From a virus: DNA of 64,000 nt. Of this stretch, positions 3,093-62,668 are shown in pieces. How positions within the stretch are numbered: the stretch's first letter is position 1; each line of letters starts with the position of its first letter. The DNA lies in the IMG/VR virus record IMGVR_UViG_3300003877_000001, positions 62,001 through 126,000 of that record. The stretch is one strand, 5' to 3'. The position numbers and the translations under genes were made by a program. The notes under the pieces were generated by a model, which had not been told where the DNA came from, made no database searches, and saw only the letters and a list, made by a program, of their open reading frames with translations.

Positions 3093-3272
3093 GTAGACCA
3101 TATCAAGTACAATATTACGAAATAACCAAACGATTAATTGAAAATCCAATGAAAGTTGGTGATAGTAGAATTGGTAAAATCAATTAATAATATTGATGAA
3201 ATTACTGCTGGCGATATTGAAATTATCAATTATAATCCACAAGGATTTATTAAAGCACCATTATTAACATGA
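3089..3272 (+). pseudogene. frameshifted small ORF
   Basis: Starts ATGA-coupled at 3089 (MSRPYQVQYYEITKRLIENP...) but stops at 3187. The +1 frame then continues SINNIDEITAGDIEIINYNP and ends at 3272, where its TGA overlaps the ATG of the HNH-cupin gene. Correct coupling at both ends suggests one gene of about 60 codons broken by a 1-nt shift. The cause could be mutation, an assembly error or programmed frameshifting; no obvious slippery site was seen. Confidence 0.5.
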
Positions 3273-4453
3273 TAGTAAAAAACCAAGAAATTCCTACAAC
3301 AAAAAGTAGTAAAAAAATATTACAATTTAAATGTGATGATTGTAATCTTCTTTATGAAAGAAGGTGGGATTCTAGAATCAACTCAAATCTAAAACAAGGT
3401 AAAGATTTATGTAGAAGTTGTGCAAATAAAAACAGTTTTAATATAGATATCAATAAAAATTATGATAACATAAAGATTGAAAATTCATATACAATAACAT
3501 GTAAAAAATGTCAGAAAGAATTTAAAGTACCTAAGCACGAAAAGAATAGAATTTTTTGCTCAAAAAAATGTCAAATTAGTGGTATAAAAAGATCAAAAAA
3601 TTTAAACATTACAAATTGTTTGATTTGCAATAAAGAATTTTCACATTATGGTGAAAGGATTGTTTGCTCAAGAGAATGTTTAAGTGAATATATGAGTGAA
3701 AAGAGACTTAATGAAAACAATCCTTCTTGGATTGAAAATAAAGAAACTAATGTTTGCAAAAGATGTAATGAATCTTTTGAATATACAAGAAGAAACCTAC
3801 ATAAAGGACAAAAAAGAGTATTTTGTTCGTTAGCGTGTTCACGAAATAATGGAAACAATAAAGAATTCATTGAAAATAATGATAACAACTATAAATACCC
3901 TAGAGTTTTCAATAATAAATTGAAAAATAGAATTAAAGATAGAGATGGTCATAAATGTCAATTATGTTCATCAGAGAAAAATTTGGAAATACACCATATC
4001 GATTATGATAAAAAAAATTGTGAAGATGATAATTTAATTACATTATGTAAAAAATGCCATAATATAACTAATCACAATAGGGGGTTTTGGTTACAAGTAT
4101 TTATTGGATTACAATCTAACTCAAAAATAGTTAAAAAGGGTTGGGGTTTAGAAATACATATTGTTAATCATAACGAATATTGTTTGAAATATTTAATATT
4201 CTTTAATGGTAAAAAGTTTAGTTGGCATAAACATCTGCTAAAAAAAGAATTATGGGTATGTATGTGGGGTAAATTTGAATGTGTTATAAATACAAATGAA
4301 CATTATGAATATTTAAAATTATCTAAAGGAGATAAAATAGAAATACTACCATCAACAGAACATCAAGTTCAGGCATTGACAAATTCAATACTTATGGAAG
4401 TATCCACAAAAGATTTTCTAGAAGATTCAATAAGAATAGAAAAGGGCGATTAA
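3269..4453 (+). CDS. HNH endonuclease fused to a cupin (sugar isomerase-like) domain
   Basis: 394 aa. Residues about 20-200 hold four CxxC-type zinc fingers. About 220-270 form an HNH motif (DGHKCQLC, LEIHHIDYDKK, LITLCKKCHN). The last ~115 residues are a cupin: KKGWGLEIHIV, FSWHKHLLKKELWV (metal-binding His/Glu pattern) and a PSTEHQVQAL second motif, as in small mannose-6-phosphate-isomerase-like cupins. The frame is continuous, so a homing nuclease appears to have landed at the 5' end of a sugar-metabolism gene and fused to it. The next gene is a sugar-nucleotide transferase, which fits the cupin's native context. Confidence 0.75.
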   Translation: MIVKNQEIPTTKSSKKILQFKCDDCNLLYERRWDSRINSNLKQGKDLCRSCANKNSFNIDINKNYDNIKIENSYTITCKKCQKEFKVPKHEKNRIFCSKKCQISGIKRSKNLNITNCLICNKEFSHYGERIVCSRECLSEYMSEKRLNENNPSWIENKETNVCKRCNESFEYTRRNLHKGQKRVFCSLACSRNNGNNKEFIENNDNNYKYPRVFNNKLKNRIKDRDGHKCQLCSSEKNLEIHHIDYDKKNCEDDNLITLCKKCHNITNHNRGFWLQVFIGLQSNSKIVKKGWGLEIHIVNHNEYCLKYLIFFNGKKFSWHKHLLKKELWVCMWGKFECVINTNEHYEYLKLSKGDKIEILPSTEHQVQALTNSILMEVSTKDFLEDSIRIEKGD

Positions 4454-9980: not shown

Positions 9981-10277
9981 ATGAAGAATTTTGAATATGA
10001 AATTAAATTAAATGATGATGGTAGACCTTATATCCACATAGATGATCCTAAGTTAGAAGTATCACATAGATTTGCATGTTTAGAATTAACTAAATACATG
10101 TTATTTGAGTTAATGAAAAATAAAGAGGAACTTCCTGAAGATTTTTTAAAAGATTTAGCAATAGCAGGTGATATGGTTAGCGGTATTTCAGATAAAATGG
10201 CTGATATATTAAAAGGTCAAATGAATGCTATGAGTGATCTTGATGATATGTTAAATACAGACACAGAAGACAAATAA
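9981..10277 (+). CDS. conserved hypothetical protein upstream of the helicase
   Basis: 98 aa, acidic. LNDDGRPYIHIDDP and EVSHRFACLELTKYML resemble small proteins of other T4-like phages. Its stop shares a base with the helicase ATG, so the two are translated together. Confidence 0.6.
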   Translation: MKNFEYEIKLNDDGRPYIHIDDPKLEVSHRFACLELTKYMLFELMKNKEELPEDFLKDLAIAGDMVSGISDKMADILKGQMNAMSDLDDMLNTDTEDK

Positions 10278-12697
10278 TGGGATTTAAACCTACAAAAGAA
10301 CAAGAAAAAATATTTCACTTCATTAAAAACAGAAAAGAAAACCTATTAATTGGTGCTCTTGCAGGTTGTGGTAAAACAACTACTGTTGTTGAAGGGTCTA
10401 AATTATTACCCAAAGATTCTAAAAAAATATATCTTGCATTCAATAAACATATTCAAATGGAATTGAAACAAAGATTACCAGATGATGTATTTTGTTATAC
10501 ATTTCATGGATTGGGTATGCAAGCAATTAAAAATGTATATGGGGATTCTATTAAATTTGATGAATTTAAAGTAGATGATATTGTTAATAAAAAATCAAAA
10601 AAATGGAATCTTAGTAGTGAACTACATAATAAAGAAGATATTGGTATATATTTAGGTAGAATAAAAAAGTTTGTTAATCTATGTAGATTAACAATAACAC
10701 TAGATAAAAAATATTTACCACATCTTTCAACTAAATATGATATAGAATTAGATGAACCTAGAGATCATAAAAGAGTATTTTCTGTTTTAGAAGAAATACT
10801 TAATGATCGTAAAACATTTGATTTTACAGATATGGTATTTTTACCTGCAATTGATAATAAAATTTGGATGTATCAATATGATAATGTAATGGTTGATGAA
10901 ATTCAAGATTTAAATCGTGCACAACAATATATATTAAAGAAAATTTTAAAGAAAGATAGAATATCTAAAAAGACTACTGGTAGATTAATTGCGGTTGGGG
11001 ACGTTAATCAATGTCAACCTAAAGGTAGTAAAATATTGATGCACGATGGTAGTGAAAAAAATATTGAGGACATTAAGAAGGGTGATTTTGTTGTTTCATA
11101 TAATAGAAAAGAAAAGGGTCGGTTTGTTGGAAGATATAAAAACAAAATGAGTGATTGGTTAAAAGAAAGAGCACCAATGGTTGAAGAAGTTTCTAAAAGA
11201 AAAATATATGAAAACTTAATAAAAATTAGTTCAAATAATAAAATTTCATCATATACTGAAAACCATAAAACTATGGTTAGATTTAAAAAAGAATCATTAA
11301 ATAAACATATTTTATATTTAATGAAAAAGGATGATAAGTATAGAATTGGTATTGTTAAACTATGGAACGGAAAAAATGATTTTGGATCATTCAGAGCAAG
11401 ACAAGAATCTGCCGATTCTTTTTGGATATTAAATACATATAATAATAAATTTGAAGCATACAGTGATGAACAATATTATTCATTAAAATATAAAATACCA
11501 CAATTAATTTTTAATTATAGAGATCAAAAGGGTAATATTAATCAAAAATATATTGATAAATTTTATAATAGAATAGACCTAAATGAATTACATAGTAACA
11601 TTTTTTTATTATTAAAAAATTTTAATAAAAGCATTGATTATCCCTTTTGGGAAAAAAATAAACATCAATATTTTAGTAAAAATCATATGTTTGAATTATA
11701 TGCAGTGAATATTCTTCCTAATGATATGGAAATGATCCATTATGATGTAAATAATACAGCAATTAGAACACATGGAAAAGGTTATCCATCTAAAATAGTT
11801 AAACCAACATATAAATCTATTGATTCTTTAGAATATGTACATTACTCTGATTATGTATATTCATTAAAAATAAAAAAATATGAATTATATGTTGCTGATG
11901 GTATTTTAACACATAATAGTATTTACGGATTTTCTGGTGTATCTGATAAATCATATGATTGGTTTCTTAAATTTCCTAATACAAAAATATTACCACTCAC
12001 TACTACATTTAGATGTGCTAAGAATATTGTTATAGAAGCACAAAAGATAGTGCCTACGCTACAAGCGTTACCTAATGCGATAGATGGCATCGTAAGAGAG
12101 GGTAGTGTCTTAGACGAGCCTGAAGATGGTGATTTTGTATTGTGTAGAACTACTACTCCATTAATAAAACTATTTTTTCATTATTTATTAGATGGTAAGA
12201 AAGCTGTTATTAAAGGAAGTGATATGGGAATATCATTAATTGAAATGGTACAAGGTCATAAAACACTATCACAATTAATGGCATTTTATACAAATGAATT
12301 AAAAAAATATGAAGCAGCTTTAAGAAAAAGAGGTATTCTTAATTATAGTGATGATAGTAGATATGTTGCTTTACAAGATAATGTTATGACGTTAGATTTT
12401 ATGGCTAAACTATCTACGGATATTGCAGACTTAAAAGATAAAATTAAAATGATATTTAGTGATGATTTATTTGGTATTGTTTTAAGCACTGTACATAAAT
12501 CAAAAGGATTAGAAGCAAGTCGAGTATTTATAGCAAGACCAGATAAAATGCCTCTACCAACAAAAAAAGCATGGCAATACCAACAAGAAATGAATTTAAA
12601 ATATGTTGCAATAACAAGAGCAAAACACGAACTAGTATTTGATTATGAATGGACTGATGAAGAAGAGGGTGGTAGTTTTGATATAGAAGAAGAATAA
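10277..12697 (+). CDS. Dda/UvrD-like SF1 helicase containing an intein
   Basis: 806 aa precursor. Helicase motifs: GALAGCGKTTT (Walker A), VMVDEIQDLN (II), GDVNQ|SIYGFSG (III), TTFRCA (IV) and STVHKSKGLEASRVF/YVAITRAKHELV (V, VI). Residues 246-547 (nt 11012-11917) form a 302-aa intein beginning CQPKGSKILMHDGS and ending VADGILTHN, inserted between Gln and Ser of motif III. Removal gives a ~504-aa helicase. No LAGLIDADG motif was seen in the intein; its middle holds a WILNTYN/YKIPQLIF domain. Probable role: replication or recombination helicase. Confidence 0.9.
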   Translation: MGFKPTKEQEKIFHFIKNRKENLLIGALAGCGKTTTVVEGSKLLPKDSKKIYLAFNKHIQMELKQRLPDDVFCYTFHGLGMQAIKNVYGDSIKFDEFKVDDIVNKKSKKWNLSSELHNKEDIGIYLGRIKKFVNLCRLTITLDKKYLPHLSTKYDIELDEPRDHKRVFSVLEEILNDRKTFDFTDMVFLPAIDNKIWMYQYDNVMVDEIQDLNRAQQYILKKILKKDRISKKTTGRLIAVGDVNQCQPKGSKILMHDGSEKNIEDIKKGDFVVSYNRKEKGRFVGRYKNKMSDWLKERAPMVEEVSKRKIYENLIKISSNNKISSYTENHKTMVRFKKESLNKHILYLMKKDDKYRIGIVKLWNGKNDFGSFRARQESADSFWILNTYNNKFEAYSDEQYYSLKYKIPQLIFNYRDQKGNINQKYIDKFYNRIDLNELHSNIFLLLKNFNKSIDYPFWEKNKHQYFSKNHMFELYAVNILPNDMEMIHYDVNNTAIRTHGKGYPSKIVKPTYKSIDSLEYVHYSDYVYSLKIKKYELYVADGILTHNSIYGFSGVSDKSYDWFLKFPNTKILPLTTTFRCAKNIVIEAQKIVPTLQALPNAIDGIVREGSVLDEPEDGDFVLCRTTTPLIKLFFHYLLDGKKAVIKGSDMGISLIEMVQGHKTLSQLMAFYTNELKKYEAALRKRGILNYSDDSRYVALQDNVMTLDFMAKLSTDIADLKDKIKMIFSDDLFGIVLSTVHKSKGLEASRVFIARPDKMPLPTKKAWQYQQEMNLKYVAITRAKHELVFDYEWTDEEEGGSFDIEEE

Positions 12698-13825: not shown

Positions 13826-15463
13826 TTAAAAATTTAACTCATATTTAAATTTACCACAATCCCAAATTCTATCAAATCCCAATTCTTGCATCATTTCCCA
13901 CTCAGTTTTATTTTCGTTATAGTGACTTGGAAATTTTTTCTTAATACTATTTTTACCAAAACCAAATTTATGAAATCTTTTATCTCTAGAGTATTTAGGG
14001 TTAAAATACCAATAATCTGGTTTTAATGTTTTAGTTAATTCAAACCCTAATTTAGAATATAAATTATTATTTGAATTTGGTGTCCACCTTCTATCTGCAA
14101 ATGATATAATTTTGGTTGGTTCATATGTTTTAATAAAATATGATAATAATCTAGAGGCAATACCTGTTATAACATATTCATTTTTAATTGTAAATCTTGC
14201 TAGTTCATATACTGTGTTATTATGATTATTTGATTTATTCATATATCTTTTATTATCAAATGTCATAATTCCAACAATTTCATCATTATAATGGGCAACT
14301 ATTGAAATTTTTGATTTATCATTACCTTGTATATGATTTTCATTTAAGAATATACTTTTATCATTTTTCGCAATATTTTCAGAAATAATACATTTTCTTG
14401 CATGAATTTTTGTGGATTCATTTAAATTAAGAATATGATTAATTTTATTTATAATTAGGGTTGGGTTATTTAATAATTCATCACTAAAAATATGTATTAA
14501 ATCATAACCCTCTTTTAAAGCCAACTCAGTTTTATTTAAATGATAATTTTTATCTTTACCACCAAATAATTCAGTATGGAAAATATTACCATTAATTTCA
14601 ATACCAATTTTATTTTTTTCATCAATTAAATCAATTTCTTTACCATTTAAAATTTTTCTATTATTCTCAATAAATTTTATATTAACATTTTCTTTTATAA
14701 ATTCTTCTAATTTTGATTTCTTATTTCCAGAGTAAAATTTTAAATATTTATTATATGTTTTAATTAATTTATTTCTTGTTTTTGGTGAAATAAGATAATA
14801 TCCATATCTTAATTTATATTCTTCAGGTGTTATATTGTGTTTTTCTTTTAAATGAGTATTAGTTATTGATTTAAATTCTTCATTACAAATTTTACAAGTA
14901 ATTAAGATATTATAAATTTCTTTTTTAATAAAATCTCGATCTTCAGGATAATTTTTTAAATGTGTTTTAAGATTTATATTGTGAATATTAATTAAATGCT
15001 TTTCATATGCACCAGATTTATTATATATGTCCTTAGTCATCCAATCACAATATGAACATTTTTTTACTTTTTTTATTGGAATATAATTTATTGTAAAATA
15101 ATTATCATACCAAAATTTACCTGTTTTATACTCAATAGATTTTCTTTTATAGTTTGAGTCAATGATAATATTTGGAAATATATTTAGGATATGACTAGTA
15201 ATAACGCCAGATTGATTTTTGTAATCCACAAAAATTTTATTTGTTTTTTTACATTTTAATGTTAATTGATAATTATTTTTTAAAGGATAATTATTTTTTA
15301 TATGTTTTTCAAACTCGAATGAATGAATTTGTTTTTGTATAAATGAATATGAGTATGGAAAATTTTCACTTACTTTTCTAATTGATTTTTTTTTCTTATA
15401 ATATAACTCTTTAATTTTATTTATTTCATATTTAGTTAATTCTTTCTTATTTTTCATATCCAT
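13826..15463 (-). CDS. Hef-like homing endonuclease
   Basis: 545 aa. N-terminal helix-turn-helix (KKKKSIRKVSENFPYSYSFI), then C2H2-like fingers (CSYCDWM...HLINIHN; CKICNEEF...HLKEKHN), a nuclease core (NGKEIDLIDEKNKIGIEING) and a C-terminal domain (NENHIQGND..., FADRRWTPNSNNNLYSKLGF) shared with the gene at 2-1318. It sits directly downstream of the capsid gene and has its own TTGTAACC...ACGTATTTATT promoter. Confidence 0.8.
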   Translation of the reverse strand: MDMKNKKELTKYEINKIKELYYKKKKSIRKVSENFPYSYSFIQKQIHSFEFEKHIKNNYPLKNNYQLTLKCKKTNKIFVDYKNQSGVITSHILNIFPNIIIDSNYKRKSIEYKTGKFWYDNYFTINYIPIKKVKKCSYCDWMTKDIYNKSGAYEKHLINIHNINLKTHLKNYPEDRDFIKKEIYNILITCKICNEEFKSITNTHLKEKHNITPEEYKLRYGYYLISPKTRNKLIKTYNKYLKFYSGNKKSKLEEFIKENVNIKFIENNRKILNGKEIDLIDEKNKIGIEINGNIFHTELFGGKDKNYHLNKTELALKEGYDLIHIFSDELLNNPTLIINKINHILNLNESTKIHARKCIISENIAKNDKSIFLNENHIQGNDKSKISIVAHYNDEIVGIMTFDNKRYMNKSNNHNNTVYELARFTIKNEYVITGIASRLLSYFIKTYEPTKIISFADRRWTPNSNNNLYSKLGFELTKTLKPDYWYFNPKYSRDKRFHKFGFGKNSIKKKFPSHYNENKTEWEMMQELGFDRIWDCGKFKYELNF

Positions 15464-40520: not shown

Positions 40521-42617
40521 ATGAAAATATTAAAAGAGAAAAAAAGAGAAATTCTTGAAAAAAAAGAAATTCTAAATAATGCTAAAATAAATTTAAAAAA
40601 AGAATTTGTTGGTATTGATGATGTAATAGATGAACTATTAGATGATATTCAATCTTGGTATCTATTTCCAGAAGGTCAAATAAGACCAACTATTATTAAT
40701 TTATGGGGTTTAACTGGTGTTGGTAAAACATCACTAGTTCAAGCTATGTTTAAACATATTAATTTAGACGACATTATATATAAATTTAATGTTGGTGATT
40801 ATGCTGGTCAGGGTGATGGTTCATTATCACATGTTTTCAGTAGAGATTTAAAAGATAAAGAAAATAAACCTGTTGCTGTAATGTTTGATGAATTCCAATT
40901 AGGTAGAACTATCGATGAAAATGGTGCTGAAGTTCAAAAATCAGGATTAAGGGTTATATGGGATTTACTTGATTCTGGTAAATTGGAACACATTGATTAT
41001 AGTTGGTCTGGTGGTGAAATAATGAGATTTGTTTATAAATTAGAAAAATGTGTTAATGAAGGTGTTGAAGTTGAAAATGGTATTATTACAAAAGGATTAA
41101 ATAAATTTAAAGATATTTTTGATCTTGATGATGAAGTTGAAGAAGAAGAAATAGCCGAACCTCAAACAACAGGTAGTGGTTCTAATAAAAAAATGGTAAA
41201 AAGAAGTAGCATACCTGAAAACTTCGTTATACCATCATCATATATTTATTCAATGAAGAATTGTTTTAATGATGAATATTATTCTGAAAATTTAATATAT
41301 GAAGCATTTAAAAATTTAAATGCAAAACAAACTATCGATTTATTAGAGTTAAAATTAAAAGTAGTCTTTAAACCTAGATTATATGATTATACTAAATCTT
41401 GTATATTCATTATAGGTAATTTAGATGAAGCATATCAAATGACATCACAAGTTTCACCAGATAATAATGCAGATGATTTCCATAAACATTCATTATCAAT
41501 CGGTTTAAGTGAAATTAAAGCATCATTAAAAACCAGATTTAGAGTTGAACAAATAGGTAGATTGGGAAATAATCATATTATTTACAAAGCATTTAGTTCT
41601 CAAACATATAGAGATTTAATTAATCTAGAATTAAATAGAGTAAAAAATGATATAATGGAAAGATTTGAAATTGATGTTAATTTCGATGATTCTATTAATG
41701 ACATCCTATATAAAGAAGGTGTATTTCCAACATTAGGAACAAGACCAGTATTTACAACAATCAATTCAATGATTGAATCAACAATGAGTAAAATTACATT
41801 GGATATTGCTATTTCTAGTAAAGATGTGGATCAAATAAATTGGTCTTTTGAATATGATGAAGATGCTTATCATATTATTGATTTTGTTCATAAAAATAAA
41901 ACCATATTAAATAAAAAATATGATGTTAAACTAAAATTAGAAAATAGAAGAAAATCTGATGGTAGTGAGATTCAATTATTAAATGCTGTACATGAAAGTG
42001 GACATGCAGTAACGTGTATGTTAATAATGGGTATCATTCCACAAGTTATTGTAAGTAAAACAAGTGAAAGTGATAATGCATTTACTAATTCAAAACAACC
42101 TAGTATGCATTTAAAAACTTGGTATGAAAATGATATTATTGTATCATTAAGTGGGATGATTGCTGAAAAAATGATTTTTGGTGAAGATTTCCAATCTAGT
42201 GGTTCTGAAAGTGATTTAGTAAGAGCAACTAATAATGCATTAATTGCAGCACAAAGATATGGTATGTTATCTGAAAATAGTGCATTTGGTATTCCTAATG
42301 CACCAACACAATATAATGAATTTAAAGATACTCAAGCAACAGATATTGAGGCAAAAACTTGGGTTAATGAATGTTATAAAGAAGCCGAAAAGTGTTTAAA
42401 TGAAAATAAAATATTATTAATAGAATTATCAAAATATCTATCCCAAAATTCTCAAATGAAAAAGGAACAAATAATTGAAGTTTTAGATAGATTAAATTAT
42501 AATGTTGATAATAAAGACTTAGAAAAATATTATAATTTACACGATAAATTTAATCATTTTGAAACTAAATATGAACTTGTAAGACCAAAAAGTCCTGCTC
42601 CAAGCATAATGGAATGA
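40521..42617 (+). CDS. soluble Clp-type AAA+ ATPase fused to an FtsH-type M41 metallopeptidase
   Basis: 698 aa. AAA+ module: GLTGVGKT (Walker A, 63-70), VAVMFDEF (Walker B, D123/E124), KTRFRVEQIGRLGN (sensor/Arg-finger region) and the Clp-type small domain LGTRPVFTTINSMIE. Peptidase: HESGH at 491-495 with third zinc ligand D565 in SESDLVRATNNA, as in FtsH. There is no transmembrane segment, unlike FtsH, and the ATPase is closer to ClpX/ClpB than to FtsH. A ~60-residue acidic insert lies near 190-225. Probably an ATP-driven cytoplasmic protease. Confidence 0.85.
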   Translation: MKILKEKKREILEKKEILNNAKINLKKEFVGIDDVIDELLDDIQSWYLFPEGQIRPTIINLWGLTGVGKTSLVQAMFKHINLDDIIYKFNVGDYAGQGDGSLSHVFSRDLKDKENKPVAVMFDEFQLGRTIDENGAEVQKSGLRVIWDLLDSGKLEHIDYSWSGGEIMRFVYKLEKCVNEGVEVENGIITKGLNKFKDIFDLDDEVEEEEIAEPQTTGSGSNKKMVKRSSIPENFVIPSSYIYSMKNCFNDEYYSENLIYEAFKNLNAKQTIDLLELKLKVVFKPRLYDYTKSCIFIIGNLDEAYQMTSQVSPDNNADDFHKHSLSIGLSEIKASLKTRFRVEQIGRLGNNHIIYKAFSSQTYRDLINLELNRVKNDIMERFEIDVNFDDSINDILYKEGVFPTLGTRPVFTTINSMIESTMSKITLDIAISSKDVDQINWSFEYDEDAYHIIDFVHKNKTILNKKYDVKLKLENRRKSDGSEIQLLNAVHESGHAVTCMLIMGIIPQVIVSKTSESDNAFTNSKQPSMHLKTWYENDIIVSLSGMIAEKMIFGEDFQSSGSESDLVRATNNALIAAQRYGMLSENSAFGIPNAPTQYNEFKDTQATDIEAKTWVNECYKEAEKCLNENKILLIELSKYLSQNSQMKKEQIIEVLDRLNYNVDNKDLEKYYNLHDKFNHFETKYELVRPKSPAPSIME

Positions 42618-48011: not shown

Positions 48012-48656
48012 ATGGCAAGAAAACAAAAGAAATATCATTATTTGTATAAGACAACAAATAATTTAAACGGTAAATACTATTATGGTATGCATAGTACTGA
48101 TGATTTAAATGATGGTTATTATGGTTCAGGTAAAAGATTAAGATATTCGATTAATAAATATGGTAAAGAAAATCATAGTGTTGAAGTATTAGAGTTCTTT
48201 GAAAATAGAATTGATTTAAAAAATAAAGAAAAGGAGATTATTAATTTAAATGAAATTGCCAAAAAAGATTGTATGAATTTAGTTGTTGGTGGTGGTGGTG
48301 GATTAATAGGATTATCTGAAGACAAAAGAGAAAATATTCGTAATGGTGCATCTAAATTTTTAAAAGAAAAATGGAAAGACCCTTCATATAGAAAAATGCA
48401 AATAAAACTTTCTTCGGAAAGAATAAAAAAAACACATAAAGAAGGAAAACTTAAATATAATAATTTTAAAAATAAATATCATAATGAAGAAAGTAAAAGA
48501 AAAATGAGTGAATCTAGCAAGGGAATGGGAAAAGGGAAAAGTAACTCCCAATATGGAACATGTTGGATAACAAAAAATGATGTTAATAAAAAAATTAAAT
48601 TATTTGATTTAAATGACTATATAAAAAACGATTGGATTAAAGGTCGTATAATATAA
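48012..48656 (+). CDS. GIY-YIG homing endonuclease
   Basis: 214 aa. HYLYKTTNNLNGKYYYGMHS with GYYGSGKRLRYSINKYGKEN is a GIY-YIG variant (YLY...YYG) as in Seg-type phage enzymes. NUMOD3-like repeats (NEESKRKMSESSKG) follow. Inserted in the tRNA cluster between tRNA-Glu and a Glu-bodied tRNA. Confidence 0.82.
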   Translation: MARKQKKYHYLYKTTNNLNGKYYYGMHSTDDLNDGYYGSGKRLRYSINKYGKENHSVEVLEFFENRIDLKNKEKEIINLNEIAKKDCMNLVVGGGGGLIGLSEDKRENIRNGASKFLKEKWKDPSYRKMQIKLSSERIKKTHKEGKLKYNNFKNKYHNEESKRKMSESSKGMGKGKSNSQYGTCWITKNDVNKKIKLFDLNDYIKNDWIKGRII

Positions 48657-48812: not shown

Positions 48813-48935
48813 TTGTTAGTGGTGGAACAGGTATACACTATCACCGTTGAAGGTGGTTTGTAGGGGTTATAGAAAACCCCTGCTGCATGGTAACATGTGG
48901 GACATCCCTTGTAGGTTCGAGTCCTACCTAGTGGT
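48813..48935 (+). tRNA. class II tRNA-like gene, unresolved
   Basis: Leu-type D-arm (GTGGAACAGGTATACAC) and a good T-arm GTAGG-TTCGAGT-CCTAC; acceptor TTGTTAG/CTAGTGG pairs only with several G-U. About 40 nt more than a normal Leu/Ser tRNA lie between anticodon arm and T-arm. Anticodon not certain. Confidence 0.4.
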
Positions 48936-50981: not shown

Positions 50982-51209
50982 CTAAACTTCTGTGATGTGG
51001 AAGAATTGAAGTTCATGTTTGTTTAATATTTGGGTCGCTCCTGAATACTGACAATAAAGAATAGTTTATATTTGAGGTGAGTACGTATTAACCGATATAT
51101 GAAGTTACTATTTTGAATGAACGCACTTCGCACTCGTCAAAGGGAGAGAAAGCAGGTTCGATACCTGTCTACGCTACAAATATTATATCAAACGGATATA
51201 ATTTAAAAT
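50982..51209 (+). other. unresolved region with one tRNA 3' half
   Basis: Contains a clear T-arm GCAGG-TTCGATA-CCTGT and CTACGCT-A at about 51152-51177 but no convincing 5' half. A TATATCAAACGGATATA hairpin closes the region at 51184-51200. Confidence 0.3.
51184..51200 (+). repeat. TATATCAAACGGATATA hairpin repeat
   Basis: A 17-nt hairpin element, repeated at 51371-51387 and 51623-51639 and partly at 50685-50697, each time between RNA genes. Probably a processing signal. Confidence 0.75.
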
Positions 51210-51364
51210 TAACTAATGGCAGAGTGGCTTAATGCGGATGTCTAGTTCTATATGATTGATAGAGGGTGAACTTCTTTATCTTTTGCTCATGAACGGAAAC
51301 AATTACCCTGATTACGAGAAGCAAATATCGAAAGGGGTCATAGGTTCGAATCCTATTTAGTTAG
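51210..51364 (+). tRNA. interrupted Ser-type tRNA-like gene
   Basis: Acceptor TAACTAA/TTAGTTA, Ser-type D-arm (GCAGAGTGGCTTAATGC), T-arm ATAGG-TTCGAAT-CCTAT and G73 are all good. GATGT can pair with ATATC as the anticodon stem, but about 75 extra nt lie between T33 and the 3' part of the loop. Anticodon not secure. Confidence 0.5.
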
Positions 51365-51370
51365 CAATAT

Positions 51371-51387
51371 TATATCAAACGGATATA
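51371..51387 (+). repeat. TATATCAAACGGATATA hairpin repeat
   Basis: Second full copy, between the Ser-type and Leu genes. Confidence 0.75.
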
Positions 51388-51397
51388 ATGAAAATAT

Positions 51398-51616
51398 GAG
51401 GATGTGGTGGAAAGGTAAACACGCTTGTTTTAGAATAAGTACAAAGTTCATTTGGGAATAAATAATACTGATGAAGAGATGAATACCATAATGCTTACTG
51501 CTTAGTTGAACCAAGTTACCCTTCGGGATATGTCGGTAAAATAGAAATCGAAATCTAAATGATAGTAGAGGTAAGAGAGAAAGTCTGGTTTGAGGGTTCG
51601 AGTCCTTCCATCTTCA
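51398..51616 (+). tRNA. tRNA-Leu(TAG) interrupted by a ~135-nt insert
   Basis: 5' part (51398-51430): acceptor GAGGATG, Leu D-arm, anticodon 5' stem CTTGT and TT. 3' part (51566-51616): TAGAG, stem GTAAG, 16-nt variable arm, T-arm GAGGG-TTCGAGT-CCTTC, acceptor CATCTTC, A73. Joined they give an 84-nt tRNA-Leu with a proper stem and anticodon TAG. The insert sits after T33, ends in G, and shares TAGA at both junctions. Confidence 0.65.
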
Positions 51617-51622
51617 CTAAAT

Positions 51623-51639
51623 TATATCAAACGGATATA
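51623..51639 (+). repeat. TATATCAAACGGATATA hairpin repeat
   Basis: Third full copy, 16 nt upstream of the tmRNA 5' end. Confidence 0.75.
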
Positions 51640-51655
51640 ATAAAAATTGAAATAT

Positions 51656-52009
51656 GGGGGTAACAGGAATTGACAGGATACGATAGGTAGACGGTGCAAG
51701 TATGAGGAAATTGCTCTACTCATTAAAAATAGGTAATGAACGTTTAAGTGGCGAAGCACTTGCAATGGCAGCATAACCGAAAGGTTTTTGTACCATTCGA
51801 GATACCACCAACTAGGTAGGTGTTCTCATAGATACTGATCACGTAAAGAGATCAAAAAATGTTGTGGAACATAAAACCAAAAAGTCTAATGTAATAAAGT
51901 GTTTGTAAATAAAAAACATAATGACTTAAAAATAATAAACAAACTAAACTTGTGAATGACTTTTTATTTGTAATATAACTGGACAGGAGTTCAAGTCTCC
52001 TTACTTCCA
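51656..52009 (+). ncRNA. ssrA: transfer-messenger RNA (tmRNA)
   Basis: Acceptor GGGGGTA/TACTTCC includes a G3-T pair as in tRNA-Ala. The 5' end ACAGGAATTGACAGG resembles the tmRNA D-domain. T-arm AGGAG-TTCAAGT-CTCCT, A73. Length 354 nt is typical. The reading frame before the pseudoknot region ends GNERLSGEALAMAA-stop (51732-51776); the exact resume codon is inferred. tmRNA rescues stalled ribosomes and tags the peptide for proteolysis. Confidence 0.85.
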
Positions 52010-52015
52010 CAATAT

Positions 52016-54288: not shown

Positions 54289-54422
54289 TTGATTAGTGGG
54301 TTGGGTTTGATTTCGACTGTTACTCTGATCAGGGGTGTTATTAGCGGTTTAAAACGTGAACACATTTGTAAGTATTTGGTAGGTAAGTTCGACTCTTGCT
54401 ACTTATTAACAACACTAATTAA
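54289..54422 (+). ncRNA. structured RNA with a T-arm-like module
   Basis: The ends close in a 10-bp stem, TTGATTAGTG with CACTAATTAA, extended by TTG/CAA. Inside are GATTTCGACTG near the 5' side and a T-arm-like GTAAG-TTCGACT-CTTGC with TACTT/AAGTA pairing. It cannot be folded as a normal tRNA. A terminal stem plus a tRNA-like module recalls bacterial Y RNAs; this is only a resemblance. Confidence 0.45.
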
Positions 54423-60954: not shown

Positions 60955-61590
60955 TTGAAATTAATTGAAATGGTTCAAAAATGGTTGGAATATGATGGTA
61001 AAATATATCACAAAAAAACAACACATGAATTAGCACATTCAATCACTATTACATCAAAAAATATGGTTACAAAATTAAATGAACATAATGTAACCCCAAA
61101 CAAAAGTTTTACGTATAAATATAATAACATTGCATTGTTTAATGAATTTTTACAGGGTTATGTTGAGGGTGATGGTTGTGTTGGAATATATAATAGTTCA
61201 ACAACTGACTATTATTATATTAGTTTTTTTGGTAATGAAGATTTTAAAGATAGTATTATAAATTTATTACCTACAAAACCTAAACTAAGAAAAGTTAATA
61301 ATAAATTTTATGAAATTAAATTTTTGGGTAAAATAGGAATTGAATTTAGTGATTGGTTATAGAATGACCCAATATATATTGATAGTCCTAAATATAAAAA
61401 ATATATTGACTTTAAAAAAAATTATTTAACTAAGACAAAATATTATAAATATGGTTTATTAAATAGAAAAATAGATAATTTATTAAATGAAAATGTAGAA
61501 CCAAAAATTATAGCAGAAAAACTTAATATTAATAAAAGGACTGTATATAATTATAAATATAATAAGAAAAATGGAAAAAATACTTACTAA
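60955..61590 (+). pseudogene. LAGLIDADG-type homing endonuclease with an in-frame TAG
   Basis: TTG start. FNEFLQGYVEGDGCVGIYNS is a LAGLIDADG-like motif. The frame stops at TAG 61360-61362, then continues as NDPIYIDSPKYKKYIDFKKN and a helix-turn-helix (EPKIIAEKLNINKRTVYNYK) to 61590, overlapping the RNA ligase start. Probably a single nonsense mutation in a former homing gene; the first part may still be made. Confidence 0.65.
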
Positions 61591-62668
61591 AATAGAATGG
61601 AGTGTTATTAATGAATATATTGAAAAGGGTTTATTAATTACTAATAAACACCCAACTAAAGATATATGGGTTCTAAATTATTCTAAAACATGTGCATTTG
61701 AAAAGGAATGGGATTTAATTACATTATCTTGTCGTGGACTTTTTGTTGACATCGATGGTAATATTGTTGGTCGAAGCATGAAAAAATTCTTCAATTTAGA
61801 AGAACACGATCCTTCTGATATTCCAACTGATTTATCATTTGAAGCATTTGAAAAAATGGATGGTTCATTGGGTATTTTATTTAATTATGAAGGTGATTGG
61901 ATATTTGCTTCAAGAGGTTCATTTGAATCAGAACAAGCCATTAAAGGTGGTGAAATCATGCTTAATATTGAAAATTCTTATAGATTTTTAAATGGTGATA
62001 ATACATATGTATTTGAAATTATATATCCTGAAAATCGTATTGTTATTGATTATGGTAAGACTGAAGATTTGGTTCTTTTAGGTGTTATCAATACTGATGG
62101 TGGTGATGAAATGTCATATGATGATATGGTGTATAATCACTCTGATGAATTTACTATTGTTGAAAAGTATGATGTAACATCTGATATTTCTAAATTAAAG
62201 GAATTAGAAGAAGATAACAAAGAAGGATTTGTTGTACGTTATTCTAATGGCTTCCGTGTAAAAGTAAAATTCGATGAATATTGCAGATTACATAGAATCG
62301 TTACTAACGTATCTAATAAGACAATTTGGGAATCATTGAAAAATGGTGAAGGATTGGATGAAGTTATTGATAGAGTTCCTGATGAATTCTACAATTGGGT
62401 TAGACGTACTGAAAAGGGTTTAAATGATATGTATATTGAAATTGAAGTTGAAACATTACGTGAATTCGTTAGGGTAACTAATTTAGTTAGTTTGAAAAAT
62501 GGATTTGATCCTTTTGAAAGAAAGAAAGAATTTGCTTTAATAGCAAAAGAATTTAAACATTCTGGATTATTATTTTCTATGTATAATAATAAAAATTATT
62601 CTGAAGCAATTTGGAAAATGATTAAACCAGACTGGTCAACACCATTTAGAGATGGGTATGAAAATTAG
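61571..62668 (+). CDS. rnlA: T4 Rnl1-type RNA ligase
   Basis: 365 aa. The nucleotidyltransferase motifs are present: I, EKMDGSLG with Lys95 as the AMP-accepting residue; CRGLFVD and KFFNLEE upstream, typical of Rnl1; III, VFEIIYP; IV, EGFVVRY; V, VKVKF. It joins 3'-OH and 5'-P RNA ends with ATP; T4 Rnl1 mends tRNAs cut by host anticodon nucleases. Codon use is good. Followed by a strong terminator. Confidence 0.88.
   Translation: MEKILTKIEWSVINEYIEKGLLITNKHPTKDIWVLNYSKTCAFEKEWDLITLSCRGLFVDIDGNIVGRSMKKFFNLEEHDPSDIPTDLSFEAFEKMDGSLGILFNYEGDWIFASRGSFESEQAIKGGEIMLNIENSYRFLNGDNTYVFEIIYPENRIVIDYGKTEDLVLLGVINTDGGDEMSYDDMVYNHSDEFTIVEKYDVTSDISKLKELEEDNKEGFVVRYSNGFRVKVKFDEYCRLHRIVTNVSNKTIWESLKNGEGLDEVIDRVPDEFYNWVRRTEKGLNDMYIEIEVETLREFVRVTNLVSLKNGFDPFERKKEFALIAKEFKHSGLLFSMYNNKNYSEAIWKMIKPDWSTPFRDGYEN

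Follow-up and report, generated by a model that had tools for sequence, protein, structure and literature searches.

tmRNA genes have been listed in mycobacteriophages Bxz1, Wildcat and their relatives, in DS6A and in Bacillus phage G (PMC4131195), and both tmRNA and SmpB have been found among the translation genes of huge phages (Al-Shayeb et al. 2020; PMC7162821). Phage tmRNAs are already documented, and the one described here adds a further member to a known kind. It lies in a 64,000-nucleotide stretch of DNA, referred to as the window, which spans bases 62001 to 126000 of a virus record 325,854 bases long (G000). Like those of the mycobacteriophages and Bacillus phage G, it is a tmRNA gene in a large phage genome; unlike theirs, its probable host belongs to another phylum and its tag is of the Bacteroidota type. 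The DS6A tmRNA consists of the tRNA-like domain (TLD) only, whereas the window tmRNA is full length. With the one-piece tmRNA of Bacteroidota (RF00023) it shares a G3.U70 pair in the TLD, the pseudoknot PK1, an A at -4 and a short GE...AMAA tag. However, it differs from this bacterial RNA in being phage-encoded within a tRNA cluster, more AU-rich and divergent, and in that CCA is not encoded.

The tmRNA gene in the window is genuine. Infernal matched RF00023 to positions 51656-52012 across model positions 1-374, with no truncation, at 43.0 bits; the E-value was 1.3e-15 when 901 bases were searched and 1.1e-16 for the complete record of 325,854 bases. The score is 4 bits under the Rfam gathering score of 47 bits, a detection threshold and not a defining feature. 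ARAGORN, run on the window, did not report a tmRNA at 51656-52009. Of the two programs proposed for checking the gene, Infernal thus found it, below its cut-off, and ARAGORN missed it, so that ordinary annotation would overlook it. A permuted tmRNA (RF04321) was also considered and was rejected at only 19 bits (E 0.11). The original prediction of a full-length tmRNA with an Ala-type G3-T pair, placed in a tRNA cluster, was borne out: the coordinates are exact, the family match runs from end to end, the neighbours are tRNA genes, and the acceptor helix P1 (GGGGGUA/UACUUCC) contains the G3.U70 pair. CCA is absent from the 3' end of the gene, where CAA follows the discriminator A73 at 52009. The features of the locus are collected in Table 1.

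Table 1. Positions of the tmRNA, its parts and other elements discussed in the text.
Feature	Position in window	Strand	Basis
AAA+ ATPase (Clp/Hsp100-type; GLTGVGKT, FDEF, D2-small) with FtsH-type M41 zinc peptidase (HESGH, SESDLVRAT)	40521..42617	+	Pfam PF00004, PF10431, PF01434; PDB matches
Ser-like tRNA-like element, two extra hairpins	about 48813-48935		
Hairpin AUUAUAUC-AAACG-GAUAUAAU (TTATATCAAACGGATATAAT), three copies	51183-51203, 51369-51389, 51621-51641	+ (51621..51641)	sequence; repeat matches
tRNA-like element, 155 nt	51210-51364		
tRNA-like element, 219 nt	51398-51616		Rfam tRNA with 137-nt insert
tmRNA (ssrA), one-piece	51656..52009	+	RF00023 end to end; identical copy in IMGVR_UViG_3300003876_000001
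TLD, 5' part: acceptor strand GGGGGUA (G3 of G3.U70) and reduced D-loop GGAAUUGAC	51656..51676	+	sequence; P1 pairing
PK1: stem 1 UGAG 51703-51706 / CUCA 51719-51722; stem 2 AUUGC 51710-51714 / GUAAU 51733-51737	51703..51737	+	pairs kept in L078
UAAGU frame-setting sequence, A at -4 like E. coli A86	51745..51749	+	conserved in L078
Tag frame GGC GAA GCA CUU GCA AUG GCA GCA UAA = GEALAMAA, plus Ala carried by tmRNA	51750..51776	+	RF00023 register; gap-free L078 counterpart
P5 hairpin AACC-GAAA-GGUU, overlapping tag stop codon	51775..51786	+	7/8 cells paired across two phages
Helix P2, 3' strand (ACUUGU and ACUUUUUAU), partner 51687-51701	51948..51967	+	alignment and pair count with L078
T arm AGGAG-UUCAAGU-CUCCU, acceptor UACUUCC (U70), discriminator A73	51985..52009	+	T-stem 5/5 pairs
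Sister-phage tag peptide AEDIMSIPTSLTRGKSVFARNTELALAA			

Only one other copy of the exact sequence was found (Table 1), and since it is 100% identical it adds nothing to a test of the fold; a divergent relative was used instead. This phage, IMGVR_UViG_3300037424_001682 (G029), has a portal protein 53% identical to that of the window phage, and its tmRNA (L078) scores 69 bits, over the Rfam cut-off, and is recognised by ARAGORN. We aligned the two tmRNAs and wrote the structure from known tmRNA anatomy, drawing it partly from the window sequence. In this small covariation sample of two sequences, 97.7% of cells are paired, compared with 43-52% when the partners are slid, and nine pairs are changed on both sides, compared with none or one after sliding. 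All 21 pairs of P1, the T stem and PK1 are kept in both phages: 7/7 in P1, with three double-changed; 5/5 in the T stem, with two; and 9/9 in PK1, with four, three of them in stem 1 and one in stem 2. The putative PK2-PK4 fall in the AU-rich middle of the RNA, which aligns poorly with L078 and shares with it one invariant 4-bp outer stem. The pseudoknots and tRNA-like fold, named beforehand as the point on which the assignment could fail, are supported by covariation for the TLD and PK1, and on this comparative evidence the fold of these parts is genuine.

In E. coli tmRNA, A86 sets the frame from a position four bases upstream of the resume codon, and this codon lies 12 nt downstream from PK1 (PMC2481249). 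The window tmRNA matches both rules, with an A at -4 and 12 nt from the end of PK1 (51737) to GGC at 51750. This GGC directly follows UAAGU and is aligned to the consensus resume codon in the RF00023 alignment. In L078, the same UAAGU is followed, gap-free, by GAA GCA GAA AUG CUA AUG GCU GCU UAA, read by ARAGORN as EAEMLMAA; with the charged Ala, the full tags are (A)GEALAMAA in the window phage and (A)EAEMLMAA in its relative. Both tags close with MAA, written AUG GCA GCA in the window and AUG GCU GCU in L078, with synonymous differences at the third base. The frame predicted to end in ALAMAA is indeed the resumed one, as the RF00023 register and L078 agree. A resume codon farther upstream (GGU AAU ...) was discarded, as GGUAAU forms the 3' strand of stem 2 in PK1 and as both the Rfam register and L078 start at GGC/GAA.

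The portal, large terminase, major head protein and head maturation protease are all encoded within the window, and the phage is T4-like. The best named relatives of the portal, all distant, are Microcystis phage Mel-JY01 and the Flavobacterium phages immuto; those of the terminase are the same Microcystis phage and cyanophages. The host phylum is probably Bacteroidota, as judged from the tag type and the distant Flavobacterium phage relatives, although other distant relatives infect cyanobacteria. The Bacteroidota -33/-7 promoter pattern showed no enrichment over shuffles and was not used as host evidence. At the nucleotide level, no relatives of note were found among annotated phages. A viral scan with the 5' end of the tmRNA returned nothing beyond the identical copy and one protein-coding stretch matched by chance, and a viral scan for the ALAMAA codons returned the identical copy and one further match, by eye a chance one. 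Full-length tmRNAs were found in eight further related records besides the identical copy. The tmRNA ends are up to 0.73 identical to bacterial tmRNAs and 0.64-0.73 identical to those of sister phages; since the bacterial identity is no lower than the sister-phage identity, the ends do not distinguish the donor lineage.

The tag end had been considered unusual. For a sample of tags not selected by their end, 90 genomes were taken evenly from across GTDB Bacteroidota, a phylum in that taxonomy; 89 of them have a tmRNA over the cut-off. Among 86 ARAGORN tag readings, two of them evident misreadings, MAA is the commonest end (44, with AMAA in 42), beside LAA (39) and YAA (1). This even draw was made besides a YAMAA pattern scan of 84,980 species genomes because the scan preselects MAA ends. 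Among the matches listed for the scan, ARAGORN confirms 69/80 loci as AMAA-ending tmRNAs, with host tags that include GEDYNYAMAA in Flavobacteriales, GDYNYAMAA in Saprospiraceae and GEDNSYAMAA in Chitinophaga. GEALAMAA resembles the Bacteroidota tags GEDYNYAMAA, GEDNSYAMAA and GETSYAMAA, and a GEALAMAA-type tag with the resume motif had no match in the 84,980 species genomes, which makes the inner part of the tag peculiar to the phage. Compared with the tags of the probable host phylum, its end is not foreign. Since MAA ends are normal among Bacteroidota, an appealing lead proves mistaken: an AMAA end ordinary in that phylum gives no ground for invoking another protease, and the proposed redirection loses its tag-based support.

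It is likely that the locus encodes a functional one-piece tmRNA of a T4-like jumbo phage, a reserve RNA for ribosome rescue that works with the SmpB, alanyl-tRNA synthetase and ClpXP of the host. The host alanyl-tRNA synthetase would charge the phage tmRNA through G3.U70, and with the help of host SmpB it would reach ribosomes that have stalled on truncated mRNA; such mRNA is expected to be plentiful during infection. From GGC 51750, translation would then continue through the tag frame and append (A)GEALAMAA, until the UAA lets the ribosome go; the product would carry a degron of the host type (...AMAA) and pass to ClpXP. By keeping the tmRNA among its tRNA genes, the phage may secure a translation factor for itself. 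SmpB (PF01668) was found neither in the window record, which is possibly incomplete, nor in 20 related records, in contrast to the huge phages in which it was reported; the same family was detected in 10 of 14 control genomes, all ten bacterial. With no phage SmpB in the record, host SmpB is required if the tmRNA works. The proposal that the phage rescues stalled ribosomes itself is the natural reading of a full-length Ala-type tmRNA, but it would hold only with this host protein. The recurrence of full-length tmRNA in this jumbo-phage group without detectable SmpB makes a phage rescue RNA with a borrowed host protein testable.

A different use of tmRNA is conceivable in sister phages, which their portal proteins (about 60% identity) place in the same phage group and which carry the same RNA family. 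An RF00023 search of portal-related records revealed seven more phage tmRNAs. Five of them (L413-L417), found without a tag pattern, carry a tag that ARAGORN reads as 28-29 residues long (AEDIMSIPTSLTRGKAVFARNTELALAA and its variants); L419 has the same tag core, and L418, which has no such core, appears shortened. The consensus of the sister-phage tag, 26-29 residues long, is AEDIMSIPTSLT[RK]G..VFA...ELA.AA, with EDIMSIPTSL as its conserved core; in the window phage the tag encodes just eight residues and has no such core. A scan for EDIMSIPTS that allowed nearly all codons, but for serine only TCN, yielded 26 viral stretches; ARAGORN reads 14 of the 26 as tmRNAs with the motif inside the tag, and two of these 14 have different flanks (GNTYNPEDIMSIPTSLNTAPVV..., ANNSEDIMSIPTSHLIVG...). 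The carriers are L413-L417, L419 and L425-L450, for example IMGVR_UViG_3300044712_001937 (364,702 bases). Across 17 distinct tags, the motif residues P, T, S, L, G, V and F are written with varying synonymous codons, and the residue is kept in at least 15 tags; the scan pattern imposes residues 2-10 but not 11-19. In each of five searched phage records containing the motif, it occurs once only, at the tag itself; it is absent from the window phage. A search for the tag core in known phages gave weak Burkholderia phage matches only (E 7), and a literature search for it found no report.

A fixed core with synonymous codons suggests, at the level of sequence conservation, a protein-level function beyond a degron. 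Tentatively, and with rather low probability, the tmRNA of this group may be a dedicated tagging device, with EDIMSIPTSLT[RK]G..VFA serving as a signal to a factor of phage or host (an adaptor, a protease or a location), and the window phage may have exchanged this for a short degron of host type that is matched to the Clp/M41 protease it encodes. The long conserved tag would be the first thing to test for phage trans-translation beyond rescue.

It is distinctly unlikely that the RNA is instead a decoy or inhibitor, which would block rescue in the host by binding SmpB or ribosomes. This has been proposed for the TLD-only tmRNA of DS6A, a precedent discussed in PMC4131195, and an RNA without a phage SmpB would compete with host tmRNA. 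However, a decoy requires neither PK1 nor the frame-setting sequence, the resume codon, the stop and the tag end, and yet the full length and all of these elements, including the hydrophobic tag end, are kept between divergent phages.

Very unlikely, too, is that the tag diverts tagged proteins from host ClpXP to another protease, such as the Clp/M41 fusion, and so gives the phage command of proteolysis and amino-acid recycling. The fusion is encoded in the same record, 9 kb upstream of the tmRNA, with intact motifs; its 698 residues join AAA and ClpB_D2-small domains to M41 and have PDB matches to FtsH and ClpB/ClpC, and by eye its translation has no membrane segment. No match to it was found among annotated phages. 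Among 16 related records, a comparison that excludes the long-tag relatives, the M41 domain occurs only in the twin of this phage (G001), which likewise bears a tmRNA. Against redirection, the tag end is the one commonest in GTDB Bacteroidota, nothing points away from host ClpXP, and G029 has an MAA-ending tag but no M41 in its fragment. Apart from the tag, the fusion is the sole hint of such a switch, and it is at most a possible partner of the tmRNA.

That the gene is a captured tmRNA decaying into a pseudogene, which would account for the sub-threshold Infernal score (43 bits versus 106-198 bits for Bacteroidota tmRNAs), the ARAGORN miss and the odd neighbouring tRNA-like elements with long inserts, is extremely unlikely, since decay is expected to break pairs and frame, whereas the P1, T-stem and PK1 pairs are all intact with compensatory changes, the tag is open with synonymous changes at its end, and low scores are likewise seen in other phage tmRNAs (G029 69, G128 69 and G136 70 bits).

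Several other elements surround the functional tmRNA favoured here. One copy of a repeated hairpin precedes each of three consecutive RNA genes, which start near 51210, 51398 and 51656, the last being the tmRNA; from its sequence and placement, the hairpin is possibly a processing element of a joint transcript. The tRNA-like elements between 48813 and 51616 have an intact T arm, a 7-bp acceptor and long inserts, and are missed by ARAGORN. At 54290-54420, a tmRNA-like start (GGGTTTGATTTCGACTG) and a T arm (GTAAGTTCGACTCTTGC) lie in a short sequence that could be a TLD-only RNA; it has no Rfam match at E<=1. Homing endonucleases, an HNH domain and a weak intein match occur at 13826-15463, 48012-48656, 3269-4453 and 10277-12697: one endonuclease lies between head genes and one in the tRNA cluster, the HNH domain is inside a cysteine-dioxygenase-like gene, and the weak intein match is inside a UvrD-type helicase. 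A T4 RNA ligase 1-like gene (tRNA repair or tail fibre attachment) is located near the tRNA cluster at 61571-62668 on the plus strand.
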